47,818 nt of DNA from Gemmatimonadaceae bacterium (GCA_013817305.1 JACDCY010000009.1:1-47818); one strand, 5' to 3'; shown: positions 1,615-21,963, numbered from the stretch's first letter. The notes: generated by a model not told the origin, from the letters alone. Program-made: numbers and translations.

Positions 1615-1624
1615 GACACGGACC

Positions 1625-4344: not shown

Positions 4345-4937
4345 AGGATCTGAAGCTCGCGGAAGCGGGTGCCTTCCTGAAGACCAACCAGCACGCGGCG
4401 AAGCTCCTCGGCGTCACTGTGCTGGTGGTGGCGATGTCGGCGTGGACCTCGTGCGCGGCGCGAGAGACGACGAAAGAAGCCCGCGTGGACACCGCCGAAG
4501 CCCGGGCGATTCGGACGACGGCTACCCGTTTCGCGCAGCAGTTCTCCGCTGCGACCACCGGGGAAACCGATGAATGGGCCCGCACGACCTCAGAAGCGGC
4601 TGAGTTTGGGACGCCGGAAGCGTTGAAGGTGTCGTTGGCGCAGACGGTGTCGCGCATCGCGGAGGGCGCCGGCATGTCACGTGTGAAGGCCAGCTTCACG
4701 CCGGCGGACTCCGTCGGGCTCGCCAACACGCGCACTATGGGAGAGATGACGTTCCAGCCGTCTACGTACGGCTTGCGGCTCGAGGCGACCGGAGGCGTAT
4801 CGGCGGTGTCACGCGTGATTTTGCGGCTACCGCCCGCGACGGAGATCACGGCGTTATCTCTCTCCGGCGATACCGAGCAGCTGACGGCAGCTTTCAATCT
4901 CGCGGTGTATCAGCCCGCGGGAGGGCCGCAAAATTAA
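4341..4937 (+). CDS. PilO/GspM/MshJ-like inner-membrane protein
   Basis: A 198-residue bitopic protein: a short cytoplasmic N-terminus, one membrane segment at about residues 25-42 (LLGVTVLVVAMSAW), then a periplasmic domain. Size, topology and position directly after the PilM-PilN protein match PilO/GspM/MshJ, which dimerise with the PilN part to tie the motor to the secretin. The segment after the membrane span is Ala/Thr/Arg-rich and likely helical; the last ~100 residues could form the ferredoxin-like fold of the family. The ATG overlaps the upstream stop by 4 bases. No catalytic motif is expected. The call depends mostly on topology and gene order. Confidence 0.7.
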   Translation: MKDLKLAEAGAFLKTNQHAAKLLGVTVLVVAMSAWTSCAARETTKEARVDTAEARAIRTTATRFAQQFSAATTGETDEWARTTSEAAEFGTPEALKVSLAQTVSRIAEGAGMSRVKASFTPADSVGLANTRTMGEMTFQPSTYGLRLEATGGVSAVSRVILRLPPATEITALSLSGDTEQLTAAFNLAVYQPAGGPQN

Positions 4938-4989
4938 GGGCGACAGATCGGACCATTCGAATTACATTTGGCTCGCGATAGTTGCGGGC

Positions 4990-5430
4990 GTGATCATCGC
5001 GTTCGGCGGTGCGTGGCGTGCCAACTCGGCGGCAGCAACCGTGGTGAAGGCGCCGAAGAGCTACATCGCTCCGGCGGCGCTCGATTCTCTCGGCCGCTAC
5101 CTGCGCCCCATTGCGCTCACGTCTGGGCGGAGGCCGGCGGAAGCGGCTGAGCTCTTTGCGAGAGAGGATTACTACGCGCAGCCCGAGCGCGCGGAACGGA
5201 GGTTTGCCGGGCCGTCGGCGCGGGCTGGGCCGGCTGGGCCGGCGCGCCCGCGATGGGTGGTGAGCGCGATACTGCTCACGGACGCGCAGCGGATGGCGGT
5301 AGTCAACGACTCGGTGGTGGTGGTTGGCTCCACCTTGCCTGGTGGCGCGCGGATAGTGGAGATCCTATCGGACCGTGTGGTGTTGCAGGAGTCTGGTGGG
5401 GGCAGGAGAATTATCTCTCTGAATCGGTGA
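4990..5430 (+). CDS. MshK/PilP/GspC-like protein
   Basis: Probable periplasmic linker between the inner-membrane assembly complex and the secretin. The C-terminal ~60 residues (VSAILLTDAQRMAVVND, then VVVVGSTL and RVVLQ) show the small beta-domain pattern of MshK/PilP/GspC homology regions. A Pro/Ala/Gly-rich linker precedes it. The given start is the first usual codon (GTG 4990), but it cuts a membrane segment in half. The frame is open upstream, and the residues before 4990 (YIWLAIVAGV) complete a signal anchor. An ATT codon at 4933, overlapping the previous gene's TAA and preceded by GGAGGG at 4920-4925, would give a complete 165-residue protein; see findings. The downstream secretin gene begins 4 bases after the stop. 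Confidence 0.75.
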   Translation: MIIAFGGAWRANSAAATVVKAPKSYIAPAALDSLGRYLRPIALTSGRRPAEAAELFAREDYYAQPERAERRFAGPSARAGPAGPARPRWVVSAILLTDAQRMAVVNDSVVVVGSTLPGGARIVEILSDRVVLQESGGGRRIISLNR

Positions 5431-5434
5431 GGCA

Positions 5435-7120
5435 GTGATGCTTGGGACCAGCTCGACCGGATCGGAACAGGCATTGAGAGCTTCGTTTGCATGCGCGGCC
5501 GTCGTGTTCCTGGCATACGGCTGCGCGAGCACACCCCGGGCGGGCGAGACTCCGCGCACGGCGTCGGAGGTAGCCGGAGTTTCCGGATCCGGCGACCGCA
5601 CCGAATCGCTCCCGGCACTTCCCGTGGCGCAGGTGACCGAGGCAGGAAAGTCCACTCCCCGCATCCAGCGGTTCGACGCAGTCGACCAGGACCTTCGTAC
5701 TGCCTTGCGCGGACTGGCGCAGAGCTTCGCACTCGGTCTGGAGATCGACCCCGACGTGCATGGGTTGGTGAACACGCGGCTCGAGAACGTCACGCTCGAC
5801 GAAGCGTTGGGAAGCCTGCTGGCGAGACACTCGTACGCGTATCAGATCCAGGGCGGAGTGCTCCGCGTTACCGGCTCGCGGATGCAGTCGAAGACGTTCT
5901 CGCTGGACTATGTCTCTCTCAGCAGGTTCGGCTCGACTTCGACTCAGCTCACGACCGGGATTGGAAGCGGCGTCCAGCTCGGAGGTCAGCAGGTTGGCGG
6001 CGCGTCTGCAGGCGCCGGCGGCAGCGTGTCCATTCAGAGCACGACGGCGGCAAACCTTTGGCAGGACATTCGAATCGCGCTGGAAGCCCTGGTGTTCTAT
6101 GACGCGGTGACCGATACGACGACCCGGCAGATCACCAGCGTCGCGAGTACGGAGACGACCGTACCTGTCGCCGGCCAGTTCCAGGGCGGGGCTCCCACCA
6201 ACGTCGCGAACAGCGTGCTTGGCGCAGCGGCCGGAGCGCCTGGCGCCACAGCCAAAACGTCAAGCGACGGGCGGAGGCTGATCATAAATCCGCTCGCGGG
6301 CAGCGTGTTCGTAACCGCGCCTCCGTCGACTCTGGCACTGGTCGAGTCGTACATCAGCTCCTTCCAGGCGTCGGTGCAGCGGCAGGTGCTCGTCGAGGCG
6401 AAGATCGTGCGCGTATCACTGAACCGGGAGTTTCGGTTCGGGATCAACTGGCAGCTCCTGACGAGCCGGGCCAAGCTGAACCTTGGCCCCGCTCCGACGT
6501 CCACCAACACCGTGTCACTGACGTTCGGGGGCGGTAGCTCGAAGGTGACCGTCGCGCTGGAAGCGCTCGAATCGCAGGGGGACGTGGCCGTGCTGTCGAG
6601 CCCGATGATAACGGCGCTCAACAATCAGATCGCGGTATTCGACGCCACGGACGCGGAAGTGTTCTTCGCGGTGACCTCCACGCCCATCATTGGCCCCAAC
6701 GGCGGAATCGTGGCGGTGAACACACAGGCAGTGCCTCAGCAGATATCGGTCGGGATCGTGCTCAACATCCTCGCCCAGATCGGCGCGGACGGCATCATCA
6801 CCATGCAGGTCCGGCCGCAGCTCAGCGAGGTGGCGCGCATCGACTCGTTCGTCACGGCCGAAGGGACAAAGATTACCGCACCGATCATCACGCGCCGCGA
6901 GACCGATACGATGGCGCGCGTGCGCGGCGGGGAGACGATAGTGATCGGCGGCCTGACGCAGACGCGCCGCGACAAAAGCTCGTCGGGCGTGCCCGGGCTG
7001 CGCCGACTCCCTGGGATAGGCGGACTCTTCGGAGGGCGATCCGACGTTGATGAAAAGGACGAGCTGGTGATCTTCCTCACGCCCACGATTATCGTGGGAG
7101 CCCGGACCGGCAGCCCCTAG
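5435..7120 (+). CDS. Secretin (PilQ/GspD/MshL family) outer-membrane channel
   Basis: Forms the outer-membrane ring through which the pilus or substrate passes. Residues ~1-32 form a lipoprotein-type signal with Cys after AYG, so it may not need a separate pilotin. An STN/N0 domain lies at about residues 70-145, then a Gly/Ser-rich low-complexity insert near 175-205. The secretin core at about 320-555 includes VLSSPMITALNNQ, the conserved GGETIVIGGL, the VPGLRRLPGIGGLFG turn and the closing DELVIFLTPTII. At 561 residues it is close to MshL size and shorter than GspD, consistent with few N-domains. GTG 5435 and ATG 5438 are both possible starts, differing by one residue. The next gene starts 3 bases after the stop. 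Confidence 0.96.
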   Translation: MMLGTSSTGSEQALRASFACAAVVFLAYGCASTPRAGETPRTASEVAGVSGSGDRTESLPALPVAQVTEAGKSTPRIQRFDAVDQDLRTALRGLAQSFALGLEIDPDVHGLVNTRLENVTLDEALGSLLARHSYAYQIQGGVLRVTGSRMQSKTFSLDYVSLSRFGSTSTQLTTGIGSGVQLGGQQVGGASAGAGGSVSIQSTTAANLWQDIRIALEALVFYDAVTDTTTRQITSVASTETTVPVAGQFQGGAPTNVANSVLGAAAGAPGATAKTSSDGRRLIINPLAGSVFVTAPPSTLALVESYISSFQASVQRQVLVEAKIVRVSLNREFRFGINWQLLTSRAKLNLGPAPTSTNTVSLTFGGGSSKVTVALEALESQGDVAVLSSPMITALNNQIAVFDATDAEVFFAVTSTPIIGPNGGIVAVNTQAVPQQISVGIVLNILAQIGADGIITMQVRPQLSEVARIDSFVTAEGTKITAPIITRRETDTMARVRGGETIVIGGLTQTRRDKSSSGVPGLRRLPGIGGLFGGRSDVDEKDELVIFLTPTIIVGARTGSP

Positions 7121-7123
7121 AGG

Positions 7124-8086
7124 ATGTACGAACAGTTCTACGGGCTCACCGAGCGACCCTTTTCACTTACTCCGAACCCGAAGTACGTCTTCTACTCGGA
7201 TCGCTATAGAACGGCGCTCGACGAGATCACGTACGGCATAGACCGCAAAGAGGGCTTCATGCTCCTCACAGGTATGCCGGGGACGGGCAAGACGACGCTC
7301 TCGCGCGATTTGCTCGAGAAGCTGGACCCCGACAAACATCGCTCCGCATTGATCTTCAATCCGTTTCTCAGCGGACCGGAGATGCTGCAGTCGCTGCTTA
7401 CCGAGTTCGGCGTGGCGTATCAGGAGAACGCGCCGCGGAACGAGCTGCTGAGCCGGCTCAACAAGTTCTTTCTGGAACAGCTCACCGGCGGCCGCACGTG
7501 CGTTGCCATCTTCGACGAGGCGCAGCACCTCTCCTCCGAATTTCTCGAGCAGATCCGGGTCCTCTCGAACCTCGAGACCGCGGAAGAGAAGCTGATTCAG
7601 ATTGTCCTGGTGGGCCAGCCCGAGCTCAGCCAGCGACTCAGGATGCCGGGCATGGCTCAACTGAGCCAACGCGTATCAGTCCGCTCCGCGCTTACCTTCC
7701 TCAACCTCGAGGAGACGAAGCGGTACATCTATCACCGGCTGAACGTGGCCGGCGCGCGCGGAAGCCTTGAGTTCACCGGGCCGGCGATCGCCGCGGTCTA
7801 TAAGGCGACGCAGGGCATACCGCGCCGAATCAACGCGATCTGCGACCAGGCGCTGCTCGCTGGATTCGTGGCACAGACGCAGAAGATCGGAGTTCCCGAA
7901 GTGAAGCAGGCAGTAACATCGCTACGGGGCGACGAGGCCGACCCGACGCCGCAGCGAAGGCAGCGCCGCATGAAGCTGATGGTCATTATCGGGTTGGTGT
8001 TATTCCTTCTCGCACTGGTCGCCGTGTCGCTCCTGGCATTGCACGGCGCCGGACTGATAGTCGTCCCGGGCCTGCCGCCGACATGA
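7124..8086 (+). CDS. ExeA/GspA/MshM-type AAA ATPase with C-terminal membrane anchor
   Basis: Cytoplasmic P-loop ATPase tethered to the inner membrane. In ExeA/GspA systems it helps insert or multimerise the secretin at the cell wall; MshM is the MSHA counterpart. The N-terminus MYEQFYGLTERPFSLTPNP is the diagnostic opening of this family. Walker A GMPGTGKTT lies at residues 50-58, Walker B-like CVAIFDEAQH near 126-135, and a sensor region QRVSVRSAL near 185-193. One hydrophobic segment at about 284-303 is followed by a short tail. No peptidoglycan-binding domain is present after it, unlike full-length ExeA. It overlaps the next gene by ATGA, which is the usual pairing with GspB or MshN. Confidence 0.92.
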   Translation: MYEQFYGLTERPFSLTPNPKYVFYSDRYRTALDEITYGIDRKEGFMLLTGMPGTGKTTLSRDLLEKLDPDKHRSALIFNPFLSGPEMLQSLLTEFGVAYQENAPRNELLSRLNKFFLEQLTGGRTCVAIFDEAQHLSSEFLEQIRVLSNLETAEEKLIQIVLVGQPELSQRLRMPGMAQLSQRVSVRSALTFLNLEETKRYIYHRLNVAGARGSLEFTGPAIAAVYKATQGIPRRINAICDQALLAGFVAQTQKIGVPEVKQAVTSLRGDEADPTPQRRQRRMKLMVIIGLVLFLLALVAVSLLALHGAGLIVVPGLPPT

Positions 8087-9225
8087 GCCTGATCGCCGAC
8101 GCGCTGAAAGCGGCGCAGAAAGAGAAGGCCCGGCGAGTGCCACCGCAGCGTACTCCGCAGCAGCAGGGATATTTTCCCTTTCGGTTTGGTACGCGTTCCT
8201 CCGGCGAGCCGATCGTTTCCCCGCTCGTCATCGGCATCGGTGTGGCGACGGCGGCTATCGCGCTGACGGCACTGGTGCTGATCTTCGCGCCAACGCGCAA
8301 GCCCGACACGCAGCCGGCCGCGGTCGCACAGTTTCTCGATTCGGTTCCGACGACGATGGTGCTCGAAACGCCGGGAGACCTCGGCCAACTTGCGCTGCTC
8401 GACAGCACGGCCGAGGATCTCACGGTGCCGATGGGCCTCGAAGAGTACGTGGACGAGCCTCCAGCGCGGTCGGTCTCCCGGCCGCCGGCGGGGAGTGCGC
8501 GCAGTGCGCGCAGCCGCAGTGCACCGAGGACGCCGGTGGAGGACGTCGAAGGTAGCAACGAGCTGCCGTCGATCGCCGCCGCTCCGCGCGTGCGCTCCGG
8601 AAGTGAGACCGGAGGACGGCTGCAGATCACGGTGGAGCGCCCGGGCCAGGGGTCGGAAGGTGGCGGCGGTCTGTTCGAACAGGGATTGGCCGCGCAACGT
8701 CGAGGTGATTACCCCGCAGCGAAGAACTACTACCTGCAGGCGACGTTCGCGTCATCGCGAAATCCGGAGGTGTATAACAACCTAGGTACCGTGTACCGCG
8801 CGCTGAGAGACTTGCCGGCAGCGGAAGCGGCTTACAGGCATGCGACGGAAGTGGACAGCAGGTTCGCTCCCGCGTGGAGCAACCTCGGAATGGTTCTCGC
8901 CCAGGAAGGGCGCGCGCAGGAAGCGATGGCCGCCCTGCAGGAGGCCGTGCGCCTTGATCCATCTAACTCGGGTGCGAAGGTAAACCTCGCGATACAGCTG
9001 CACGCCGCCGGCTCCCTCGCCGACGCCCGGAGATTGCTGGAGGACGCGCTGCGCGTCGATCCCGCGATGCCCGAAGCGCATTACGAGCTCGCGCGCGTCA
9101 TGGAAAAGCAGAACGACCGCGCGGGAGCTGTCCGCGAGTATAGAATCTTTCTCTCTACTGCGGGCGGCCGGTTCGCCACGCTCGAGCAAGCCGTGCGGAG
9201 CCGCCTGGTGAGGCTCGAGCAGTGA
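8083..9225 (+). CDS. MshN/GspB-like membrane protein with periplasmic TPRs
   Basis: The N-terminus MSLIADALKAAQKEK matches the short conserved cytoplasmic helix found at the start of GspB and MshN proteins. A membrane segment follows at about residues 46-70, then a disordered Pro/Ser/Arg-rich linker to ~185. At least four TPR units fill residues ~195-375 (RNPEVYNNLGTVYRAL, FAPAWSNLGMVLAQEG and MPEAHYELARVMEKQ mark helices). GspB/MshN proteins work with the ExeA/MshM ATPase in secretin assembly or pilus function; the TPR part resembles MshN more than GspB. It overlaps both neighbours (ATGA upstream, GTGA downstream), which argues for a stoichiometric complex. Confidence 0.85.
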   Translation: MSLIADALKAAQKEKARRVPPQRTPQQQGYFPFRFGTRSSGEPIVSPLVIGIGVATAAIALTALVLIFAPTRKPDTQPAAVAQFLDSVPTTMVLETPGDLGQLALLDSTAEDLTVPMGLEEYVDEPPARSVSRPPAGSARSARSRSAPRTPVEDVEGSNELPSIAAAPRVRSGSETGGRLQITVERPGQGSEGGGGLFEQGLAAQRRGDYPAAKNYYLQATFASSRNPEVYNNLGTVYRALRDLPAAEAAYRHATEVDSRFAPAWSNLGMVLAQEGRAQEAMAALQEAVRLDPSNSGAKVNLAIQLHAAGSLADARRLLEDALRVDPAMPEAHYELARVMEKQNDRAGAVREYRIFLSTAGGRFATLEQAVRSRLVRLEQ

Positions 9226-9725
9226 GAATCGCCGTCGCTTTCACTCTGGTGGTCGTCGGCTGTGCGCCGACCATCAAGCCCCTTCCCCGCGCCGCCGACG
9301 AGCTCCCGCCGCTCCCCGTGGAGGAAGTGAGTATCATCACCACTCCTCCCCCGGCCGGCGAGCCGGCGGGCGCGCAGCCGCGCGTAACTTTGAATGCGTC
9401 CCGTGCGGACGTCCGGGTGCTGATAGACGCGCTGGCCCAGATCGCCGGAGTGAGCGTCGTCATGGACCGCAGCGTGCGTGGAACGGTGGCCGTGCGCTTT
9501 GATAACCTGCCCGCCATCGAAGCTCTGCACGCGGTGATTGATGCAGCCGGACTCGCCATTGAGCGAGGCGTGGAGAAGCCGTGGTCCGAATCGGTGTTCT
9601 ATCAGCCGCCGGTGAACGTCAACACCGCTCCGGCAGGTGTCATCAGCGCCCGGTTCGGCGTGAGCGGGAAGCTGGCGGACTGGATCGTGAAGTCGAGGCC
9701 CGTGCTGTTCATCACCGACCCCTGA
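9222..9725 (+). CDS. Small STN/secretin-N0-domain lipoprotein
   Basis: A 167-residue lipoprotein: an N-terminal hydrophobic signal ends at VVVGC with Cys at residue 14, then a Pro-rich linker and one STN-like (secretin and TonB N-terminus) domain at about residues 55-105 (ITLNAS-like start, VLIDALAQIAGVSVVMD, AIEALHAVIDAAGLAIE). That fold resembles the N0 domain of the secretin encoded earlier in the operon. The C-terminal ~50 residues carry no motif I know. It starts with GTG inside the previous gene's stop (GTGA) and is the last gene before the terminator at 9748. It could be a pilotin-like or accessory protein of the channel; a specific function is not shown. Confidence 0.7.
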   Translation: MRIAVAFTLVVVGCAPTIKPLPRAADELPPLPVEEVSIITTPPPAGEPAGAQPRVTLNASRADVRVLIDALAQIAGVSVVMDRSVRGTVAVRFDNLPAIEALHAVIDAAGLAIERGVEKPWSESVFYQPPVNVNTAPAGVISARFGVSGKLADWIVKSRPVLFITDP

Positions 9726-9795: not shown

Positions 9796-10335
9796 CTACT
9801 GAACCGGAGTCGCCAGGAAAGATGTCGTGTTGGAGGCGTTATATCTCAGCAATCCTGTCGAGGAGTTTGCCACCTCGTCGATGATCTCGTCCAGCTTGTT
9901 GAAGTCCGTCAGAGACATCCCGGCGATCTGCACACCCAGGAAAGTGGCACCGTCATCCAGGATTTGAGTAAACTGGCCTTTTATGTCGCCACCCAGGGTC
10001 GTCTTGAGATCGCCGTTGGTCAGTCGTTTAGATAGGTACGGACCCTTCCACTTCGCGACCAGGTTGCCGGGGTAGGTCGAGCTGACCAGATCGAAATCAG
10101 TGGTGCTCACCGCCGACGTGAGATGGTCCAACTCGCTCGGGTATCTCCTGACGTCGGATACGAATGCCGTTATGCCGGTCTGGACGGCGAGCAGATCTTC
10201 GGCGGCGCGAGCAGAATCGCCCTTTCCTACCTGACCGATAAGCGCGGGCAGGAGCACCGCGGCGAGGGTCGCTATAATCGCGACCGTGACCAAAACTTCT
10301 GGAAGGGTGAAGCCGAGCCGCTTGCGGTGTTTCAT
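9796..10335 (-). CDS. GspG-like pseudopilin/pilin, minus-strand copy 1
   Basis: Prepilin with a short basic leader and a class III cleavage site, RLG|FTLPEV, carrying the usual Glu at +5, then a ~20-residue hydrophobic helix. The body has the GspG signature: RRYPSELDHL and KWKGPYL. ATG 10335 is chosen because AAGGA sits 8 bases before it and because it gives a normal leader; a longer frame to 10386 adds an unlikely N-terminus. The C-terminus ends in TPVQ and there are no cysteines in the mature part. It lies 31 bases after the paralogous gene at 10367-10915 and is probably co-transcribed with it. Either could be the main fibre subunit. Confidence 0.93.
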   Translation of the reverse strand: MKHRKRLGFTLPEVLVTVAIIATLAAVLLPALIGQVGKGDSARAAEDLLAVQTGITAFVSDVRRYPSELDHLTSAVSTTDFDLVSSTYPGNLVAKWKGPYLSKRLTNGDLKTTLGGDIKGQFTQILDDGATFLGVQIAGMSLTDFNKLDEIIDEVANSSTGLLRYNASNTTSFLATPVQ

Positions 10336-10366
10336 GAGAGTGATCCTTGAAGGGACGTGAGCTTGC

Positions 10367-10915
10367 TTACTGGATGGGCACGGCATAGAAAGTGGCGCTG
10401 GACGACGCGCTCACATATCGCAGCTGCCCACTGGACGAGTTTGCGACGTCGTCGATTATCTGGTCCAAACTCGTGAAATCTTCGATCGGAATCGGCAGGG
10501 CGATAACTTGAACGTAATTAATGCCGTTGTACGAGGCCTGGGCAAAAGCACTTTGGACCTCGGCGCCGAAGCCAGTTATCAATGTGCTGCTGGCCGTCAG
10601 TTCCTTGGCGAGATACGGTCCCTTCCATCTGGCGACGAGCGGCGCCGGATAAACGAGTCCCTTGATATCCAGGGCGCCCGGCGTCGTGATCCCCGTCGTC
10701 AATTGATTCAGGGAGCGGGGATACCGCCGTACGTCGGACACGAAAGTATTTATCGCCGTCTGCACGGCGAGGAGATCGTTCGACGCCCGGCTCGCTTCGC
10801 CCTTGGTGAGTTGACTGTTGAGCGCGGGGAGAAGCACGGCGGCCAGCGTCGCTACAATCGCGATCGTGACCAGAACCTCTGGCAGCGTGAACCCGCTGCG
10901 GGCGCCTCTCTTCAT
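10367..10915 (-). CDS. GspG-like pseudopilin/pilin, minus-strand copy 2
   Basis: Close paralogue of the downstream gene (shared GFTLPEVLVT, ATLAAVLLPAL, DLLAVQT, VSDVRRYP, RWKGPYL, and a C-terminus ending VPIQ), so the pair looks like a tandem duplication. Prepilin peptidase should cut at SG|FTLPEV. ATG 10915 is chosen because GGAGAG lies 5 bases upstream; a start at 10936 would add seven residues. The mature protein has no Cys. It is first in its transcription unit, divergent from the SARP regulator gene, with which it shares a ~250-base promoter region. Confidence 0.93.
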   Translation of the reverse strand: MKRGARSGFTLPEVLVTIAIVATLAAVLLPALNSQLTKGEASRASNDLLAVQTAINTFVSDVRRYPRSLNQLTTGITTPGALDIKGLVYPAPLVARWKGPYLAKELTASSTLITGFGAEVQSAFAQASYNGINYVQVIALPIPIEDFTSLDQIIDDVANSSSGQLRYVSASSSATFYAVPIQ

Positions 10916-11082
10916 CCAGCTCTCCGGGTTATTCAAACCAGCTTATTCGCTCGTTAACTTCGGTAACTATAGATGGACACCGTCACCATCTCATTACACG
11001 GGCTCCACCCTACGTAACAGGGCGCCAGACGTCCTACGACGACCTGCCTGCGACTACATTCTACTGTCTTTTCAGGAGTTTC

Positions 11083-11101: not shown

Positions 11102-11167
11102 CGTACATGGGCTTGCGCCCCTCCGCCCCCTAGTTCGTCACGGGATCGTTATATTGTCGGCAACGCA

Positions 11168-14100
11168 ATGTCACGATCATATAACACGCCCGAAGGTGGC
11201 CGCTTCAGGCTCTTTCTATTGGGCCCAGCCTCCCTCACGGACGGTGCTGGGGCGCTTCTGCAGGGGATGGGCCCCGGGAAGCCGCTGGCTGTGATCGCGT
11301 ATCTCGTGATTAACGGATCCGCCCAGAGGGAGGAGCTGGTCAGTCTGCTCTGGCCCGAGATACCTGAAGATCGGGCGCGGAACGCCTTCCGTCAGACGCT
11401 GCATCGGCTCCGTAATGCGCTTGGCCAGCAGGTGCTGACTACGGATCGGGAAATCATATCGGTGGCCGCGGACGACCTGCTCTGGTGCGACGCTTTGGAG
11501 TTCCAGCACGCCGCGTCCTCCGACTTCGACCGCGCGATCGGACTGTATCGCGGGGCCTTTCTCGGTGGAATGAACGTCGGATCGGCTGCCTTCGAGCAAT
11601 GGACGGAAACGCAACGAGAGCGCATGGAAGCGCAGTATCGGGGCGCGTTGACCCGCGCGGCGAACGCGGCTCTCGAGGCTGGCGACACGGACGGCGCGAC
11701 AGACTATGCGCGCATGCATTCGCGCGTGGCGCCATTGGACCCGAACGCGGCGGTGCTCGAAGCCAAGACGCTGGTTGCGGCCGGACGGAAGCCCGAAGCG
11801 ATCTCCGTCCTAACGCAACACGCGTCCCTCATCGAGTCCGAGCTGGGCGCAAAGCCCGCGGCAATGGTCAGCTCGATGTTGCAGCGCCTGGTCAACGAGG
11901 TGCCTGCAACCTCGGCCGCATCGACGTTCGCGGGCGGACCGGATCTCCTGCCCGAAGCCGAGTTCCTCGGACGTGATAGAGAGATCGGGAAGCTGCTCGG
12001 CCTCTGGCGCGGGATCGAGCAACGCGGTGCGTTCGCGGTAGTGACGGGATCACCTGGGATTGGTAAGACCCGCCTCCTGAAAGAGCTGACGCAACGGATC
12101 GCGGCGTTCGGACCAGCGCTGCTGCTCTGGGGGCAGGAGCGGCACGGCAACCGGTCGATCCCATACGCCGCGATCGCTGACGCGCTGCGGCCGGCGGTGA
12201 GCGCGCCGGGCGTCGCCGGTGCGAGCCAGCACCTGCTGGCGGAAGCGGCCCGCCTGCTTCCAGAGATCAGGGACCAGTTCAATCTGCCGGAAGCACGCCC
12301 ACTGGAAGACGAAGCCGCGCGGATCAGGTTTTTCGAGGGAATCGCCGCGCTACTCGACGCCGTCGCGTTCGAGCAGCCTGTCTGCGTCGTCCTGGAAGAT
12401 CTCCAGCACGCGTCGCGATCGAGCGCCGATCTGTTGCAGTTCCTTACACAGAGACTGGAGGCGGCGCCAATACTTTTTCTCGCCAGCTACCGGCCCGCTG
12501 ATTCGCCGCGGTACGTGCTCGAGCATTTCGGCGCGCCGGAGCTCCAGCCGGCAGCAAGCGGTTCAGGTGCTGACGCATCCGGATCGAGTCGGGCGGTTCT
12601 TCCGCTCGCACGGCTGGACGTTGACGCGGTCCGGAAGCTCGTAGCATCGGTTACGTCCCCCAACGAGATCGACGCGGGCGCGGCCGCATCCATCGCGGCG
12701 GTGTCCGAGGGGAATCCATTTCGGGCGCTCGATCTGGTGCGGCGTGTACGCCGGGGTGAGCCGGTCGCAAAGCCCCCCGCTGAAATTTCGGCGGTGCTGT
12801 GGGCCCGGCTGCAAAGCTGCACGCCCCACGAACAGCGAATCTTTCTTGCGAGCGCGCTCCTGGGGCGCCCTGCCCCGCTGCGCGTGCTCGCGGCGGCCAC
12901 GCATCTCGCGGAACCGGTGGCATTGGACGCCGCGGTCGTCTTGGAGCAGTGCGGGTTGACGGTTCAGCGCAGTGGCGGAGTCGCACCCGCGCATGACGTG
13001 GTAGCGTTACTGGCGCTCGAAGGAACCGGCTCGGCGGGGCGCGCGCTGCTGGCGGGCTGGACGGCCGATGCGCTCGCCGCCGAGCCGGGAACGTCGAATG
13101 CCGAGCTCGCGCAGTTGTACGCCGCGGCGGGCCAGCCATCGTCGGCGCACAACTATGCCCGGGCGGCGATTCTGGACGCGGCGGTGAATGGGGCTGCGGA
13201 GGAACTGGACAATCTCCTCGTGCTGGCCGCTCAAACGGCGCTCAACAATCGCGACCGGCTCGCGGTCGAGTCTCTGCGCACCACTTTTCGCGGGGGCGCG
13301 TACAGGCTTCGAAGCGGCAGCGCCGCTCCGCCCGTCACGCCGGGGCACAACGAAGAGCAGACACCGGATGACCCGATGCGCATAGAGGGACCAGCTCCCC
13401 TCGGAAGCGCTCGATATGCCTCGGCCGCCAGCGAATCGCCCACATCGTGGGCGAGCATAACGGCGAGGCGTCCAGTGCAGATCGCCGCCGCGGTCATGCT
13501 CGTTGCGGCGGTCTCGGCGGGGCTGGTGCAGCAGCGCATCGGAGCGAGCGGCGCGCGAGGCACGACGCTGTCCGATTCCGTGATGGTGGCGGAGCGCGTG
13601 GGAGCGCGCGGCAGTCGTCTCTACTCGGTGACCGGGTCGATGCTGCCCACTGCGTCACTCGCGTCCGCCTCTCCTCCCGCCCAGCCGGCATGGATGGCGG
13701 AGCTGACGCTGCCGTGGATCAATCCAAGAGTCAGCCCGGAAGGCCGGCTGGTAGCGCTCGAACGGATCACGCCGCGCGGAACGGACATTTACGTCGTGAG
13801 CGCCGACCAGCGCGACACGATTCCTCTCGCGTTGGGGCCGGGTGATGATCTCATCGCCGGCTGGTCACCCGACGAGAGCTGGTTGCTTGTGATCAATGTG
13901 TCCGCCGAGGAGGAGCGATACCGGTCCGTGCTGCACGCTTATTCGGTGGCTCGCCCGGGAGTGAGGGTGGTAATCGATACTGCGTCGGCCAACTCGGTAG
14001 TCGACGCGACGTGGTCGCACACGGGGCTGCACATTGCCTGGACCGCGCGGACCGGCCCTACCCGGCAGCAGGACATATTTGTGGCCGCGAGTGACGGGAC

Positions 14101-15328
14101 GGCTGCGCGAAATGTGACGAAGGGGGAAAGTGAGGAGTACCACCCGGCGTGGTCGCCCAACGGCGACCAGCTGGCGTTTACGAGCGACCGCGACGGGGAC
14201 GCCGAGATTTACTCGGTCGAGTTGGGTACCGACGCGCTCCGGCGGCTCACCTTCAACTCGGCGCAGGACGATCGCGCTGCGTTTTCGCCGGATGGAGACT
14301 TCATCGCGTTCGAATCCACCCGCGAAGGGCGAGTCAGCGTCTATGCTATGCCCCCACTCGGCGGGAGCGCGCGCCGGCTCACGCCGGTGGACAGAAACTT
14401 CGAGCTTCTGGGATGGCGCGGGCGCCGCCCGGCGTACCTGGCCGAGCTTCAAATCTCGGCGCCCGCGACGCTGGCCCCGGGCGCGAGCACGACCGTGACA
14501 GCCATCGCTCTGGATCAATACGGGTCATCGATACCGTTGCCGGCCATCGAATGGGTGACACTGGACGATGCCGCGCATGTTCGTCCGCGGCCCGCCGCCC
14601 GGGGCCAGGATCCACCGTCGCCCCCAACGCTCTTTGCGGAGCGTGCCGGCACAGCGCGCATCGTCGCAAGAGCCGGTGCCTGGAGGGCCGACACGGCGTT
14701 AATCATGATCAGTGTGCCCCTCGGCGTCGTGTCCGAAGACTTCACTGGTGGACTGGCTTCCTCACGTTGGAAGGCCCTCGGTGATCCTAGCCCCGTGGTG
14801 GTTTCCGACGCCGGGATCGGCGGCGGTGCGGGCCTGGTCCTGCGCTCCGACCGGCAATGGGAGAGCGGAGTGCTGGGAACGAATATCTTTCCTCTCCGCC
14901 CCGGCTTGTCGATAAGTGCGCGCGTGCGAGCGCCGTTCTCCTCTACCGGGCAGCCAGGCGGGTTCACGCTGGCGCTGGTAGCCGCGGAAGCTAGTGACGC
15001 AATCGATATATCGGCCCCGCAATTTCTAAAGATGGTAGCTTTGACGTGGCTGCCTGAGGCAGGCCGTTTAGCCTATTCGGCGGATCGCGAATTCTGGTCT
15101 GAAGTTGTTCGCTTTGGCCGTGGTGACGATTGGTACCACTTCCGGATAGAAGTCGAGTCCGATGGCAGGATCTCGTTCTACGTAGAGGGTCGCCTGCGGC
15201 GGCAGTCGAATATCATTGTAGCGGCGAGGCCGGGAGATACACTGGTGCAGCTCTGGATTGCCGGGCGGGGCACGGGAGACGAGGTCGTAGTCGACGATGT
15301 TCGGCTGGGACTGGAGAGCGAGCGATGA
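11168..15328 (+). CDS. Giant membrane-spanning SARP/BTAD-AAA regulator with TolB-type propeller and LamG-like domain
   Basis: A 1386-residue one-component regulator. Residues ~10-100 form a winged-helix (OmpR/SARP-like) domain and ~105-250 a bacterial transcriptional activation domain of TPR type (BTAD). An AAA/STAND-type ATPase follows, with Walker A GSPGIGKT near 294-301 and a CVVLEDLQH Walker B-like strand near 407-415. A single membrane segment lies near 770-790. Beyond it are TolB/PD40-type beta-propeller blades (~840-1080; HPAWSPNGDQLAFTSDRDGD is the clearest), an Ig-like domain (~1095-1185) and a C-terminal jelly-roll resembling LamG/concanavalin folds (~1190-1386). DNA binding is thus in the cytoplasm and ligand sensing probably outside. 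It is divergent from two pilin genes and 13 bases upstream of a four-pilin run, so control of pilin expression is a natural inference. Confidence 0.9.
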   Translation: MSRSYNTPEGGRFRLFLLGPASLTDGAGALLQGMGPGKPLAVIAYLVINGSAQREELVSLLWPEIPEDRARNAFRQTLHRLRNALGQQVLTTDREIISVAADDLLWCDALEFQHAASSDFDRAIGLYRGAFLGGMNVGSAAFEQWTETQRERMEAQYRGALTRAANAALEAGDTDGATDYARMHSRVAPLDPNAAVLEAKTLVAAGRKPEAISVLTQHASLIESELGAKPAAMVSSMLQRLVNEVPATSAASTFAGGPDLLPEAEFLGRDREIGKLLGLWRGIEQRGAFAVVTGSPGIGKTRLLKELTQRIAAFGPALLLWGQERHGNRSIPYAAIADALRPAVSAPGVAGASQHLLAEAARLLPEIRDQFNLPEARPLEDEAARIRFFEGIAALLDAVAFEQPVCVVLEDLQHASRSSADLLQFLTQRLEAAPILFLASYRPADSPRYVLEHFGAPELQPAASGSGADASGSSRAVLPLARLDVDAVRKLVASVTSPNEIDAGAAASIAAVSEGNPFRALDLVRRVRRGEPVAKPPAEISAVLWARLQSCTPHEQRIFLASALLGRPAPLRVLAAATHLAEPVALDAAVVLEQCGLTVQRSGGVAPAHDVVALLALEGTGSAGRALLAGWTADALAAEPGTSNAELAQLYAAAGQPSSAHNYARAAILDAAVNGAAEELDNLLVLAAQTALNNRDRLAVESLRTTFRGGAYRLRSGSAAPPVTPGHNEEQTPDDPMRIEGPAPLGSARYASAASESPTSWASITARRPVQIAAAVMLVAAVSAGLVQQRIGASGARGTTLSDSVMVAERVGARGSRLYSVTGSMLPTASLASASPPAQPAWMAELTLPWINPRVSPEGRLVALERITPRGTDIYVVSADQRDTIPLALGPGDDLIAGWSPDESWLLVINVSAEEERYRSVLHAYSVARPGVRVVIDTASANSVVDATWSHTGLHIAWTARTGPTRQQDIFVAASDGTAARNVTKGESEEYHPAWSPNGDQLAFTSDRDGDAEIYSVELGTDALRRLTFNSAQDDRAAFSPDGDFIAFESTREGRVSVYAMPPLGGSARRLTPVDRNFELLGWRGRRPAYLAELQISAPATLAPGASTTVTAIALDQYGSSIPLPAIEWVTLDDAAHVRPRPAARGQDPPSPPTLFAERAGTARIVARAGAWRADTALIMISVPLGVVSEDFTGGLASSRWKALGDPSPVVVSDAGIGGGAGLVLRSDRQWESGVLGTNIFPLRPGLSISARVRAPFSSTGQPGGFTLALVAAEASDAIDISAPQFLKMVALTWLPEAGRLAYSADREFWSEVVRFGRGDDWYHFRIEVESDGRISFYVEGRLRRQSNIIVAARPGDTLVQLWIAGRGTGDEVVVDDVRLGLESER

Positions 15329-15341
15329 CGGCGTGCAGCGG

Positions 15342-15971
15342 ATGAATTCTCTGGCGTCTGCGCGGAGATCGTGGCAGCTTGGTTGCGTGCTCCGGTTGCG
15401 ACGCGGGCTGACCCTCATTGAGCTGGTGGTTGTAATCGCCATCCTCGGGATCCTCGGTGTCGTGATTGTTTCCACGACGGGCGGATCGTCGGCTGCGCTG
15501 AAGAGCGACCAGGAGCGAATCAACGAGGTAGCGAGCGAGCTCGACCTCCTGTCCCGCGCGATCGCTTTCTTCGAGCCGACGAAAACGGCGATTTCCTTCA
15601 AGCAGACCGTCGGCGTTTACCCGAGTCGCCTGTCACACTTGACCGGGGGGATCACGACGGCCAAACAGAACAGCTGCGGCACGAATTACACGAGCGGCCA
15701 AGTGGCACTCTGGATCGGTGGATACTACACTCGAGAGCTTCCGGGATTCAACCTGGAGGATCTGCTGGTGCGTAGCCCGGTAAATGCGAACGCCCAGCAA
15801 CACGGAACCTTGGCCATCGTCATTCCGAACGTCACGCTGTCGGACGCGCAGCTGCTGGATCAAACGGTGGATCGTGACGCGAGCGCCACGGCGGCCACGG
15901 TTCGATTCGCCCCGGACGACGGAAGCACGCCTGTGACAGTCTCCTACCTCAGCGCGATCGGCGGATGCTGA
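15342..15971 (+). CDS. GspG-like pilin with C-terminal cysteine, run member 1
   Basis: Prepilin of 209 residues. The leader is long and basic; the cleavage site is RRG|LTLIEL with Glu at +5, followed by a hydrophobic helix. The body keeps the YPSRLSHL motif of the locus and LWIGGYY in place of the W-x-GPY motif. Mature cysteines are Cys112 (in NSCG) and Cys209, the last residue, likely disulphide-bonded. ATG 15342 gives a plausible leader; the frame is open to 15297 but that part overlaps the regulator gene. No strong ribosome-binding site is visible. It starts 13 bases after the regulator gene and its Cys-stop codons (TGC TGA) contain the start of the next gene. Confidence 0.9.
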   Translation: MNSLASARRSWQLGCVLRLRRGLTLIELVVVIAILGILGVVIVSTTGGSSAALKSDQERINEVASELDLLSRAIAFFEPTKTAISFKQTVGVYPSRLSHLTGGITTAKQNSCGTNYTSGQVALWIGGYYTRELPGFNLEDLLVRSPVNANAQQHGTLAIVIPNVTLSDAQLLDQTVDRDASATAATVRFAPDDGSTPVTVSYLSAIGGC

Positions 15972-16621
15972 TCCGGCGCGGGGCGACCCTCTTCGAGGTA
16001 ATTGTTACCGTGGCCATCCTGGCCGTGATCGCCGGGGCCGTGTATTTGAACGAGGCGCAGGCCTCCAGGCCTGGTGGCGCGGCGGCCAACGTGGACCAAG
16101 CGGCGCAACTGCTGGCGGAGATAGCCGATGCCGCGGGGCGGACGACCGGAACGGGCGGCGCGACCTCTTTCAACCAGTTCATCGGGAATGCAAACGCGAA
16201 TACGTCCGCCAACGCCGGGAAGCTCTCGCTGCTCACCACCAAGCTCACGAACACCGACCTGAACAGCTGCATGTACCAGTACACGACGGCGGAAGCAAAC
16301 CGCTGGGTGACACCGTTTTTCTATCGAATACTGCCGACCACGGGGTTCCAGCTCTCACCGGGTTATTTCGCGCAGGACAGCCTTATCAGATACAGCCTAG
16401 CCGGAGTGGCGACTACGGTCGCCAACCGGCCCGCCGCCAACGACGCATCGGCCTTTGGAACGCTCGCGATCGTGATGCCGAACACGCAGCTCTCGGACGC
16501 TCTCGCGCTTCTCGCCCGGGTGGAGGGCGACCAGACGGGCCTCGGTGCCGTGCGCTACTACCCAAAAGACGGGAGCACCCCTGTCACGCTGGAGTACCAT
16601 TTTACCATCCGTGGATGTTGA
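15965..16621 (+). CDS. Pilin-like protein with C-terminal cysteine, run member 2
   Basis: Prepilin of 218 residues with a very short leader MLIRRG. Cleavage is expected before ATLFEV, so the first mature residue is Ala rather than Phe, with Glu at +5. The hydrophobic helix follows. The body is the most divergent of the run: the GPY motif is replaced by WVTPFFY, and an Asn/Ala/Thr-rich segment lies near residues 70-85. Cys102 (in NSCM) and the terminal Cys218 match the cysteine pair of its neighbours. The start overlaps the upstream stop by 7 bases. It is probably a minor pilin. Confidence 0.88.
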   Translation: MLIRRGATLFEVIVTVAILAVIAGAVYLNEAQASRPGGAAANVDQAAQLLAEIADAAGRTTGTGGATSFNQFIGNANANTSANAGKLSLLTTKLTNTDLNSCMYQYTTAEANRWVTPFFYRILPTTGFQLSPGYFAQDSLIRYSLAGVATTVANRPAANDASAFGTLAIVMPNTQLSDALALLARVEGDQTGLGAVRYYPKDGSTPVTLEYHFTIRGC

Positions 16622-17235
16622 GACCCGGGAGAGCGAGGCGGGAGAGTTCTCGACAAGCGTCGCACTTGGCGAGACTACGCCGGGGATTCACACTCATGCT
16701 TGCCGTCGTCACAATAGCCGTGATGGCGGTCCTGGCGACCGTGATTTTTGCTTCCCTGAGGACCGGAGGAGTCGATCGTATAATCCTCGCCGCCGACATT
16801 CTCTTCCGGTTCAAGACGGAGATCATCGGAACGGACCCTTCATTTTACGAGCGACTCAAGGTTTATCCCGGCCGGCTGAGCCATCTCGTGTACCCGATCA
16901 CCACGGCCCAACGAAACAGCTGCGGACAGTTCTATAAGGCATCTCCCGACGTCAACAACTGGGGGGGGCCCTACCATCCGGTCCCTTGGGTTCCCGGCGC
17001 ACCGTACGTGCTCGCGCTCGGAATAGCGGCGCAGGACTCCACCATCAGAACCAACTTTTCGCCGCCTGGAAACGCTCTCGCGCTTGCGATTGTGATGAAC
17101 GATGTCCAGCTTGCTGACGCGCAAGCACTGAAGGCAAGGATCGATGGCATTGGTGGAGACACCATCGCGTTTACGCAGAATGGCGACAACCCCGTGGTCG
17201 TCCACTATCGAATACCGATTACGTCACTATGCTGA
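16615..17235 (+). CDS. Minor pilin lacking Glu5, run member 3
   Basis: Prepilin of 206 residues. The basic leader ends RRG, and the mature start is FTLML, so position +5 is Leu instead of the nearly invariant Glu. Minor pilins without Glu5, such as GspK, are known at fibre tips. The body has YPGRLSHL and NWGGPY motifs. Cys103 (in NSCG) and the terminal Cys206 again form a pair. It overlaps both neighbours by 7 bases. The absence of Glu5, normally used for N-methylation and subunit docking, suggests a tip or initiator role. Confidence 0.88.
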   Translation: MLRPGRARRESSRQASHLARLRRGFTLMLAVVTIAVMAVLATVIFASLRTGGVDRIILAADILFRFKTEIIGTDPSFYERLKVYPGRLSHLVYPITTAQRNSCGQFYKASPDVNNWGGPYHPVPWVPGAPYVLALGIAAQDSTIRTNFSPPGNALALAIVMNDVQLADAQALKARIDGIGGDTIAFTQNGDNPVVVHYRIPITSLC

Positions 17236-17804
17236 GACAACGCTCAAGGCAGTCACGGAGCCGGTGGCCCGGGTTTACCGCGGTGGAAATTCTCGTGTCG
17301 CTCGCCATCGTCGCTATTCTTTCGGCGATCGTGGTACCGGAGATAATGGGTAGGATCCGCGAGTCCCGCCGGTCGGCGCTATCTCAGACTTTGTTCGGGC
17401 TTACGCAGGGAATCTCCGAATACAAGAAAGCAACGACGCGCTACCCGTTCCAACTCAGCCTCCTCACGAGGCCACCGATAGCCAACACGGACAAGGATGC
17501 CTGCGGCACCTTCCTGTCGCCCACCAATGCCAATAACTGGCGTGGGCCGTACGTATCTCGGCAGCTGCTGGCCACGGGAATTCCGATGGGTGATGGAACC
17601 ATCATCGATGCGCTCGAAAGGACCTCCAGTACGCCCACGTATCTGCTGATGAACGTGACGAACGTGGATACAGAGATAGCCTTGCTGCTCGAGTCGGAGC
17701 TCGACGGGGCCGTGTCCAATCCGTCGACCGGCACGATCCGCTACACGACTCCCGTCGCGGGCCAGGTCACTCTGTCGTACTCGATTCCGATCTCCGGCTG
17801 CTGA
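17229..17804 (+). CDS. GspG-like pilin with C-terminal cysteine, run member 4
   Basis: Prepilin of 191 residues. The leader contains many Arg and Ser; cleavage is expected at PG|FTAVEI, with Glu at +5. The mature helix continues LVSLAIVAILSAIVVPEI. The body carries RYPFQLSLL, DACG and NWRGPYV. Cys92 and the terminal Cys191 match the other run members. The start overlaps the upstream stop by 7 bases. It is the last gene of the regulator-pilin unit; only 6 bases separate its stop from the convergent Uma2 gene. Confidence 0.92.
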   Translation: MLRQRSRQSRSRWPGFTAVEILVSLAIVAILSAIVVPEIMGRIRESRRSALSQTLFGLTQGISEYKKATTRYPFQLSLLTRPPIANTDKDACGTFLSPTNANNWRGPYVSRQLLATGIPMGDGTIIDALERTSSTPTYLLMNVTNVDTEIALLLESELDGAVSNPSTGTIRYTTPVAGQVTLSYSIPISGC

Positions 17805-18468: not shown

Positions 18469-20868
18469 TCATCCCGGACGTAGCTCATCGCTAATCGAGC
18501 CCCTCTCCTTGTACCAGCTCGTACCAGAGCGCCACGGCTCGTGACAGTCCCCGGCGTCCACCGGCCGGCTCTGGATCGCCGATGCGGCAAGACTAGTAAG
18601 GGGAGCCGCGCGCCGGCATAGCCCCGCTGCCTCGGCTACAACACCACTCGCGGCTGTGCTGTTGCCCCCGCGCGTGAAGAATTCCGCAGCCGTGGTAGCG
18701 AGTCTATAGTCAACGGCGTCACCAGCCGACAGCATCGGCCACATCGAAGCCGGCCCGTACTTGTTGGTTAGGTAATGGCGGAGCAGCTGACCACCGAGCG
18801 CCGGATCTCCCGCGTCGGCAACATCTCTCGCGACTCTCGTCAGAATCGCGCGGTCGAGTTCGTACCCGGCATCCATCGCTCGCTCCAACCAGCGAACCGC
18901 TTCTCCGTGCTGCTGCAGCGAGGCATGTGCGAGTCCGACATACGCCCGTGTTTGGCCGAACGGGGGGTACAGTGCGTACGCCCGATCGAATTCCGCGAGC
19001 GCTTCTCTTGGCCGCTGGACGTTGAGGTACGCCATCCCCAGCGAGAGGCGCGTCGGGACTCTTCGAGGCGCCAGCTCGACGGCGCGCTGCAGACGCCTCA
19101 GCGCCGACTCGTACAGGCGCATGTTCCCATAGTAGTAGGCGCCCAGGATGAGGACCCGGGCATGTTGTACGGTAATGCGCTCGTTCAGCGGGTCCCGCAC
19201 TGCCTGTCGCTCGAACTCCTCGATGGCGAGGATGAACGCGCGGTCGAACAGAGCGGCATTCACGGCACTGCTCTGGATTTCCTCGAAGCGGGGACGGAGC
19301 GACGCGAGGTACGCCGCGTACATGACGAAGACGTGCTGCGATGCGGGCGCCGGCGATCCGAACACTGCCCGGTATCCCTCCAATACCTGCGCTTGTGACA
19401 GCGATGGATTCCTGACTCGATCCAGATTACGCGCCATCCGCAGGGTCTCGAACCCGTGGACGTACAGCACCGCAGCGAGCGTAATCGCCCCCGCCCCGAG
19501 GACGACCGAGCTTTGCCAGCGCTTCTCGTGCGGCGCGCCAAACTCGATCAATGGCTGCGTTGTGGCGCGGGTCGTAACGAACGCGCCGAGCGCGATCCAC
19601 AGCATCGTCGAATTGAGGTCGAAGAACCAGAAGAACAGATAGAACGCGTACGCGGCGGTGAAGCCGAGCGCTACGGACTCCACTGCGACGGACGGGCCAA
19701 GCTCCGGCTTGCCGTCCGCTCGCTGCTCGGCCCGCCGCGCCGCCTCCCGGGCCGACCACCCGAGGGCCAGAAAGACGGCGAGCAGTGACAGGACGCCGAG
19801 GATTCCCGCAGTCGCGAAGGCGTCGAGGAAGGCGTTGTGCGCCCGGTCCCAACGGGAGTCGGCGGTGAAGCGGTACATCTCAGGGTGGTAGTAGCTGCTC
19901 CATACTATCTGATAGTTCTCCGGCCCAACGCCCAGGAGGGGACGGTTGCGAATTCCCTCAAAGGCCGCGCGCCATTGGATGACGCGGCTGGAGTCAACGC
20001 CCGAAGCCAGCTTGGATAGCACCCAGACGCGAGAGGTCACCGGCTGGGTCCAGGAGGCGCGGGCCAGGAGGGGTAAGGCAGCCGCCGCTGCCAGCAGCGC
20101 GATGACCATTGGTATTCGCCAGCCACGCAGCCTGCCCGACCAAATCGTGTAGCAAGCGAGCGCGACGCCGGCCCCGATGAGCAACCCGAGCGTCGAGCCT
20201 CGGTTGCCCGAAACCACGACGGCCGTGACAAGAACAGTTCCGATGGCGCCGTACACTAAGCGACCCGGCTTTTCCGCAAGCAATGCCAGGATCACGCATA
20301 GCGAGAGGCTGGCCAGGAGATACGGCGCGAGCAAACCTGGGTTTCCCACCGTAACGCCTTCTGCAATCCCTCCGATGATGGGTTTGAAGGGGCGAAACCA
20401 TTGCTGCACAAGTCCATATGTCGCGATAAGGGTCGCGACTCCGAGGTTCAGGCGGAAAAACCGGGTCCAGTGACGGGGTCCGAAGAAGGTGCAAAGGAGC
20501 ACGTAGTACGCAACGAGGTGGATCCAGAACCAGACCCCACCCATGCGCTCGTGATCCCCGAAGATGCTGCGTATGGGTGACGCACCGAACGCCGCGGCAA
20601 GCATGTTGGCGGCGACCCACGCCGCCAGTGCCCAGAGTACGAAGTCGCGGCGGTAGTTGACCGTTATCTGGCGACGGACGACGAGATACAGCAGGATCGC
20701 GGTGGCCAGCTGCACCAGCACACGGAAGTAAACGGCGCGGGTCGTGACGTAGGGAAAGAAAAAGCCCGGGATGACGACGGCAGGCACCAGTGCAGTCGCA
20801 TAAAGCAGTCCGCGGGCGATTGACGCCGGAGTGTCGGCGGTGTTGCTATCGATGGAAGGGAGTTTCAC
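18469..20868 (-). CDS. O-antigen ligase/Wzy-like membrane protein with C-terminal TPRs
   Basis: A 799-residue polytopic protein. About a dozen hydrophobic segments fill residues ~20-480. The Wzy_C/WaaL-type region lies at ~300-380, with SRVIQWRAAFEGI, PLLGVGPENY and RAHNAFLDAFATAGILG, including the conserved His-Asn pair. After the last membrane segment (~475) is a soluble part with TPR-like repeats near 640-720 (TRLSLGMAYLNVQRPREALAEF). The family moves lipid-linked glycans to lipid A or proteins; PglL/TfpO members glycosylate pilins. Its position among pilin genes makes pilin glycosylation possible, but polymerase or ligase roles elsewhere are equally open from sequence alone. The start at 20868 gives a short cytoplasmic N-terminus. 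Confidence 0.85.
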   Translation of the reverse strand: MKLPSIDSNTADTPASIARGLLYATALVPAVVIPGFFFPYVTTRAVYFRVLVQLATAILLYLVVRRQITVNYRRDFVLWALAAWVAANMLAAAFGASPIRSIFGDHERMGGVWFWIHLVAYYVLLCTFFGPRHWTRFFRLNLGVATLIATYGLVQQWFRPFKPIIGGIAEGVTVGNPGLLAPYLLASLSLCVILALLAEKPGRLVYGAIGTVLVTAVVVSGNRGSTLGLLIGAGVALACYTIWSGRLRGWRIPMVIALLAAAAALPLLARASWTQPVTSRVWVLSKLASGVDSSRVIQWRAAFEGIRNRPLLGVGPENYQIVWSSYYHPEMYRFTADSRWDRAHNAFLDAFATAGILGVLSLLAVFLALGWSAREAARRAEQRADGKPELGPSVAVESVALGFTAAYAFYLFFWFFDLNSTMLWIALGAFVTTRATTQPLIEFGAPHEKRWQSSVVLGAGAITLAAVLYVHGFETLRMARNLDRVRNPSLSQAQVLEGYRAVFGSPAPASQHVFVMYAAYLASLRPRFEEIQSSAVNAALFDRAFILAIEEFERQAVRDPLNERITVQHARVLILGAYYYGNMRLYESALRRLQRAVELAPRRVPTRLSLGMAYLNVQRPREALAEFDRAYALYPPFGQTRAYVGLAHASLQQHGEAVRWLERAMDAGYELDRAILTRVARDVADAGDPALGGQLLRHYLTNKYGPASMWPMLSAGDAVDYRLATTAAEFFTRGGNSTAASGVVAEAAGLCRRAAPLTSLAASAIQSRPVDAGDCHEPWRSGTSWYKERGSISDELRPG

Positions 20869-21050: not shown

Positions 21051-21698
21051 TTACGGCGCGTACGGGATCATGTAATAGAAGCCGGTTGCCGTTCCGCTGA
21101 CGCTGTACCGGAACAACCCGGTCGTGCTGTTCGCCGGGCTGCCGTCGAGCATTACGTCGACGCCATTCGCCTCGGTAACGCTCAAGCCGTTCAGCTGCAC
21201 CGTCACGAAAGCGCCGGGCCCGCCCGTCGCCGCCACCTCCGCGCATAGCGTCGAAGACGTAATGTCGCAGATCTTGAGGTCGTTCTCATAGAAGCCAGCC
21301 GCACCCGCACGCAAAGTCGTGGACCCGCTCAGAGTCGCGCCGGCGGGCAGTGCCTGCGCGAGATAGGGTCCGTTCCACAACGACTGATTGGCGTACTGGA
21401 AGCCATCCAGTGCAAAATCGTCAGTTGTCGATGACGGGGTGGAGGAAACGAATTGGGGTTGGTTCACCAGGTCTTCGAGATCCCCGGGATAATCGGGCCG
21501 CAAATTTTGACTGAATACCTCGACACCCAGCTTGATGTTGTTCAGATCGCTCGCGATACGCGCCGGGTCCGCCGCGCTCGTCTGCTTCGCCAGAGCCGGA
21601 AGCACGACCGCGGCGAGCACGCCGATAACAACGGTCGTCACCAGCACCTCGACGAGGGTGAAACCGAATCTCCGCTTCCTACTCAGACTCCTGAACAT
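21051..21698 (-). CDS. GspG-like pilin, solitary copy
   Basis: Prepilin of 215 residues with cleavage expected at RFG|FTLVEV (Glu at +5). The body carries DYPGDLEDL and LWNGPYL, the GspG-type motifs shared across the locus. It differs from the other pilins by an internal Cys pair in KICDITSSTLC, spaced 9 residues apart. ATG 21698 is chosen because GGGAG lies 7 bases upstream and the leader is normal; the frame is open to 21782 but without a better start. It is monocistronic, ended by the hairpin at 20985. The 21699-21963 gap upstream is non-coding and probably holds its promoter; a GTCAC-N6-GTGAC repeat lies at 21772-21787. Confidence 0.92.
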   Translation of the reverse strand: MFRSLSRKRRFGFTLVEVLVTTVVIGVLAAVVLPALAKQTSAADPARIASDLNNIKLGVEVFSQNLRPDYPGDLEDLVNQPQFVSSTPSSTTDDFALDGFQYANQSLWNGPYLAQALPAGATLSGSTTLRAGAAGFYENDLKICDITSSTLCAEVAATGGPGAFVTVQLNGLSVTEANGVDVMLDGSPANSTTGLFRYSVSGTATGFYYMIPYAP

Positions 21699-21963
21699 TG
21701 AACGCTCCCGCTGGTAAATTGAAAGTGTCGCGAAAATGGATCGCACTACGGGGAGATAGTATCCTGGCCTCGTCACTGGCATGTGACACGTTCATGAGGC
21801 GCCGTTACTCCCCCTGTAGAGCCACTCGAGCGAAGCGGAAGCATGGGCGCCGCCGCAGGCGGGACAATATACGGCCACCACTAGCTTCTGACAAACAAAT
21901 GCCCACCACGCCCCGCGTTACACACTGAAGCCGTTGAAACTCAATGATTTAGCTTCGCAAATC

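Follow-up and report, generated by a model that had tools for sequence, protein, structure and literature searches.

A 47,818-nucleotide stretch of DNA from a Gemmatimonadaceae bacterium (GCA_013817305.1, JACDCY010000009.1:1-47818; hereafter the window) carries a gene on the forward strand (11168-15328) for a 1386-residue protein that we take, with a probability of about three in four, to be a membrane-anchored AfsR-like large SARP that activates pilin operons on a periplasmic or surface signal. One protein would then probably link events outside the cell to the making of pili. We propose that this regulator, laid out like AfsR and anchored by one membrane helix, keeps its N-terminus in the cytoplasm and a sensor of propeller, Ig-like and beta-sandwich domains in the periplasm. 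In the active state its SARP domains would occupy three direct repeats (approximately GTAACG) that cover the -35 region of pilin promoters, and would bring in RNA polymerase in the way AfsR does at the afs box; the NOD ATPase would serve as a nucleotide switch relaying the state of the sensor. The pilin operons of its own MSHA-like cluster would be turned on, and its own promoter may be bound as well; pilin or pilus status, or an envelope or surface glycan, are candidate signals.

Alignment of the divergent intergenic region between regulator and pilin genes reveals one conserved block against poorly conserved surroundings, present at eight orthologous loci in three genera. Read toward the pilins, the block runs repeat, 21 bp, repeat, 11 bp, repeat, 9 bp, -10 box (TATAGT or GATAAT), the repeats being direct with a consensus of about GTAACG and the distances between them given as periods. 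In the window, predicted operator 1 (10966-11018, reverse strand) reads toward the pilins starting at 10915 and 10386, with its -10 box at 10966-10971, a 9 bp gap, and repeats at 10981-10986, 10992-10997 and 11013-11018; predicted operator 2 (21756-21808, reverse strand; repeats at 21771-21776, 21782-21787 and 21803-21808) lies upstream of the pilin starting at 21698. An unsupervised scan of all 4096 hexamers at 21 spacing pairs picks out CGTTAC with spacings of 11 and 21 bp, which at one locus per genus (three genera) scores 47 of 54 matches against a maximum of 41 in 200 shuffles. In published SARP sites, direct repeats follow one another at 11 or 22 bp and the 3' one stands 8 bp from the -10 box (PMC10936776); the block has this layout, its longer spacing and its gap to the -10 box each one base off the published figure. 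The triple repeat is likely a SARP-type operator and the target of the regulator, to judge by sequence, and we infer activation rather than repression because the site covers the -35 region.

A strict form of the operator pattern finds a single site in the window's genome and occurs in 7 of 179 family genomes, once in each and on the regulator's contig, compared with none for the reversed control. Six of these seven sites served to derive the pattern; the seventh, in genome G119, is independent of the derivation and stands before a pilin gene in a cluster carrying the regulator. When the pilus loci were scanned with up to 4 mismatches, every match was correctly oriented and lay 5' of a pilin gene; most often a cluster had two, one in the divergent pilin promoter and one before a distal pilin operon. 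The bare triple repeat at up to 3 mismatches occurs in exactly two places in the whole genome of the window, both of them pilin promoters. Two loci with regulators of the same architecture and no pilins (L115, L116) gave no operator match at up to 4 mismatches. The regulator (E <=1e-80) is present in 9 of the 179 family genomes and the pilus secretin (E <=1e-40) in 10, the nine falling entirely within the ten and belonging to 3 of 35 genera; the tenth secretin genome (G429) is 80% complete, and its secretin lies on a contig that is cut short. A single clade (support 100/100) unites the eight full-length pilus-linked regulators, with the twelve others of the same architecture outside it, and this together with the co-occurrence indicates that the regulator travels with the pilus.

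Pilin genes adjoin the regulator on both flanks, as an earlier note on this DNA had described, and the operator in their promoters takes the link beyond adjacency. The divergent operon comprises pilin genes at 10367-10915 and 9796-10386 (reverse strand), and four pilin-like genes (15342-17804, forward strand; prepilin domain in three) follow directly 3' of the regulator after a gap of about 13 bp and then overlap one another. Because these downstream genes are co-directional and nearly overlapping, the co-transcription with pilins proposed in the earlier note is plausible only within the window's genus; elsewhere the downstream pilins are convergent (the G016, L091 and L092 loci, and G067) or there are none on that side. 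It is the divergent pilin promoter that is conserved, with upstream pilins running away from the regulator in all loci.

The regulator gene is a single intact open frame with orthologues. Its N-terminus combines a winged helix (residues ~13-104) with a BTAD domain (113-240; Pfam E 2.5e-10), together covering 11204-11887. A profile of ten relatives over their first 260 residues matches both AfsR (3e-13) and EmbR (1.2e-9), which argues for a true SARP domain, winged helix included; Pfam Trans_reg_C is detected in 8 of 16 relatives. Next come an AAA_16/NOD-type ATPase (265-437, 11960-12478; Pfam 7.3e-21), with intact Walker A (GSPGIGKT) and Walker B (VVLED) motifs in the alignment that predict ATP binding, and a helical arm or TPR-like region (~485-708, 12620-13291) recognized from helices in the structure model. 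Beyond the membrane segment lies a beta-propeller of TolB/S9-peptidase type (~800-1088, 13565-14431), identified by Pfam (PD40 repeats, 2.1e-17), NCBIfam (TolB propeller, 940-1072) and a fold search with the model, whose propeller matches are TolB and S9 peptidases at Z 19-22. An Ig-like Big_2 domain (~1090-1184, 14435-14719) follows; its profile matches Leptospira LigA/LigB (6.5e-9), and Pfam Big_2 is found in 6 of 16 members. The chain ends in an all-beta domain of about 200 residues (1185-1386, 14720-15325) that is possibly LamG/ConA-like. Its sole family match is Laminin_G_2 in one relative (8.7e-4, below the curated cut-off); a LamG/concanavalin family search with the window protein gave no match, and the fold search list was filled by the propeller. 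Thus the single chain envisaged in the earlier note holds for its SARP, ATPase, membrane, propeller and Ig parts, and its LamG or jelly-roll domain is weakly supported, the modelled identity of this domain being the least secure part of the architecture.

A single membrane helix is predicted from hydropathy at 769-789 (13472-13534, forward strand), near the residues where it had been anticipated (770-790). Residues 769-787 form the most hydrophobic segment of the chain (Kyte-Doolittle 2.08; runner-up 1.72), and each of the 20 proteins examined, the window's among them, has such a segment at this junction, starting between residues 713 and 772. Basic residues are more numerous on its N side than on its C side in 18 of the 20, favoring an N-in orientation, and export is typical of TolB-type propellers and Big_2 domains. 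We infer a topology with a cytoplasmic N-terminus and a periplasmic C-terminal half. The protein joins in one chain a DNA-binding domain and at least one membrane segment, the latter predicted from hydropathy only, and so has the makeup of a transmembrane regulator. The two halves share one frame in all 20 proteins, ruling out a frameshift or a pair of separate genes, in keeping with the single gene initially described.

These conclusions must be tempered by several observations that weigh against them. The positive-inside signal is tied in the window protein itself (2/2) and reversed in L091 (2/4). Structure prediction delivered the propeller, the all-beta C-terminal domain and the helical arm, but the N-terminal model has a mean predicted local distance difference test score (pLDDT) of only 61.5, too poor for a fold search. 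The operator has a spacing of 21 rather than 22 bp and a gap to the -10 box of 9 rather than 8 bp (figures of PMC10936776). Its score at six loci, 91 of 108 matches compared with 73.4 +/- 1.25 in 100 dinucleotide shuffles, overstates significance because loci within a genus are related, and the one-per-genus figure is the fairer. Finally, genomes G016, G264, G067, G003 and G001 have additional triple-repeat matches outside the pilus cluster, most of which carry 3 mismatches and whose frequency is about that of the control.

We favor tethered action over release of the DNA-binding part, and consider it unlikely that the protein is anchored only until regulated proteolysis frees its SARP-NOD part as a soluble activator. 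Membrane-bound transcription factors of other families are established cases of regulated proteolysis; it would also be awkward for a DNA-binding part of some 80 kDa to serve several promoters while tethered, and model confidence is very low in the linker before the helix (~710-765), as is usual for disordered linkers. That linker nevertheless differs widely in length and sequence among relatives, no conserved cleavage motif turned up (no search was aimed at one), and membrane-acting regulators are common, according to a survey (PMC10269533). Another possibility, which we hold to be improbable, is a genuine operator that serves a different SARP-type protein, the window's regulator controlling something else. 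The genome does encode further BTAD proteins (G000:C135, C17), yet at eight loci the operator sits in the interval separating regulator from pilin genes, its occurrence across genomes follows that of the regulator, and other BTAD-AAA proteins are widespread in genomes without this secretin. It is very improbable that the hydrophobic stretch is no membrane helix and the protein a soluble large SARP whose beta-rich C-terminus would, unusually, be cytoplasmic: the stretch has moderate hydrophobicity (1.2-1.6) in a few relatives (for example L115, L056 and L091) and a slightly positive apparent insertion energy on a crude biological scale, but it is the top segment of the window protein, recurs at the same junction in the 20 proteins with basic residues before it, and precedes domains of generally exported kinds.

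The anchored, AfsR-like arrangement is common in Gemmatimonadota rather than unique to the window, as far as sequence comparison goes. A search of the phylum of the kind suggested earlier found the same order of parts in proteins of 1328-1389 residues, 20 proteins in all, across three families of the order, the named orthologues coming from Gemmatimonadaceae metagenome-assembled genomes. When 395 genomes of the phylum were searched with a profile of the exported half, at least 58, some of them from other families of the class, had a match spanning most of the profile; the true number may be higher, three candidates having been scored per genome, and outside the order the count refers to the exported half. 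Searching genome contigs with the window protein by itself returned no relatives, and a five-member alignment recovered them. Plasmid records matched the N-terminal half only, the best places reaching 38-51% coverage and none 80%. One candidate relative, L059 (G013), lacked the propeller in the alignment and was dropped from the sensor alignment. Regulators of the same architecture have other neighbours at L054, L056, L057, L058, L064, L084-L087, L089, L115 and L116, so the pilin link is a property of one clade and not of the architecture. That relatives with the same sensor have other neighbours also suggests a general ligand, for example a glycan of the envelope or surface, to be no less likely a signal than a pilus subunit.

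The window protein resembles the large SARP AfsR of Streptomyces coelicolor in having winged helix and BTAD, NOD ATPase and helical sensor or arm in the same order, and in its predicted target of direct repeats of the 11/22 bp type near a -10 box (PMC10936776). Unlike AfsR, which ends in a cytoplasmic TPR sensor, it adds a membrane helix and a 590-residue, predictedly exported sensor, and its predicted targets are pilin genes in Gemmatimonadaceae. In AfsR the SARP domain is inhibited by the NOD and TPR parts and ATP binding relieves the inhibition (PMC10936776); the same order of parts with an added helix and sensor suggests a NOD switch governed by the sensor. The plan of a winged helix inside, one membrane pass and a sensor outside, as predicted here, also recalls ToxR and CadC. 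However, the winged helix is separated from the membrane by BTAD, NOD ATPase and arm, and the sensor is of propeller-Ig-beta type, so that the linker-joined winged helix and ToxR/CadC-type sensor that define that family are lacking. Folds similar to the sensor's are known from TolB/S9 propellers and the Big_2 domains of Leptospira Lig proteins; here they would form the outer part of a transcription regulator.

Large SARPs and transmembrane regulators are each well known, and their union is the new element in the literature searched, where the combination of BTAD/SARP with transmembrane returned nothing relevant. The survey of transmembrane transcription regulators counts 50,302 of them with more than 100 kinds of DNA-binding domain, and its main text makes no mention of BTAD or SARP (PMC10269533). 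The protein would thereby join two well-studied designs, the SARP-NOD activators of antibiotic type and the one-piece transmembrane regulators, and, if this is correct, a STAND ATPase would serve as relay between an exported sensor and promoter binding. With dozens of genomes sharing the architecture, what comes into view is a class and not just one gene. We lean slightly toward the view that Gemmatimonadota hold a large and so far undescribed class of membrane-spanning SARP-NOD regulators, each with a STAND switch driven across the membrane by a propeller-Ig-beta-sandwich ectodomain and each wired to its own operon via SARP-type direct repeats, of which the pilus-linked clade would be the first with an assignable regulon. 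The operator makes the regulator directly testable and gives a pilus regulon in a phylum known largely from uncultured members.

A tentative third operator (11136-11174, forward strand) consists of CGTCAC, CGTTAT and TGTCAC spaced 11 and 22 bp apart, and overlaps the regulator's own -10 box (TATATT, 11150-11155) and start codon. The offset of the three elements (CGTCAC/TGTGAC/CGTGAC, CGTTAT and TGTCAC) is shared by three species of the genus, and single-sequence shuffle frequencies are 0.003-0.03. The conserved ATGTCAC is not the gene start in L051, because that frame stops after eight codons; its retention there therefore favors a binding site over a coding reason. We treat the site as a lead only, one that could mediate autoregulation.

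The assembly genes of the pilus cluster, an MSHA-like pilus / type II secretion set identified by family matches, occupy 124-9725 (forward strand) and comprise T2SSE with MshEN, T2SSF, an MshL-like secretin, an ExeA-type ATPase, a TPR protein and a GspD N0 protein. T2SSE with MshEN, secretin, ATPase, TPR protein and several pilins are shared with MSHA-type clusters; in contrast to these, the cluster carries its own SARP regulator, and its secretin falls under the MshL cut-off (best model TIGR02519, 2.3e-60, 204 bits compared with a curated 250), for which reason we call it only MSHA-like. The GspD N0/STN-domain protein (9222-9725) stands alone, with 167 residues and a lipoprotein-like start, and small proteins resembling it occur in the same cluster of L050, L051, L052 and L092. 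Operator 2 precedes a pilin gene at 21051-21698 (reverse strand), downstream of which lies a Wzy_C O-antigen-ligase-like gene with TPR (18469-20868, reverse strand), possibly a pilin glycosylation ligase; similar long membrane proteins are encoded at L051, L113 and L114. At L052 (2722-5691), L092 (15392-18199) and L091 (6985-9834), a large, apparently exported protein of 935-989 residues sits amid pilin genes in a long operon behind a second operator, and is a candidate pilus-tip adhesin.

A second copy of the sensor half in G003, at L053 (G003:C232), is cut by the contig end and 46% identical to the window protein, and is a paralogue of the regulator. Two regulators of the same architecture in family f3 are overlapped at their 3' end by a small gene of about 100-123 codons (L054:4525-4896, L085:4904-5209), arranged as if translationally coupled, whose product (MKL(I/F)DR..AGL.T.GK.ANQALDEGKLRV) is a possible partner protein. 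Elsewhere in the window, 32035-34455 encodes an apparent serine/threonine kinase, read by eye, that has a single membrane segment and a tail resembling TPRs, and so follows another one-piece design for signalling at the membrane.

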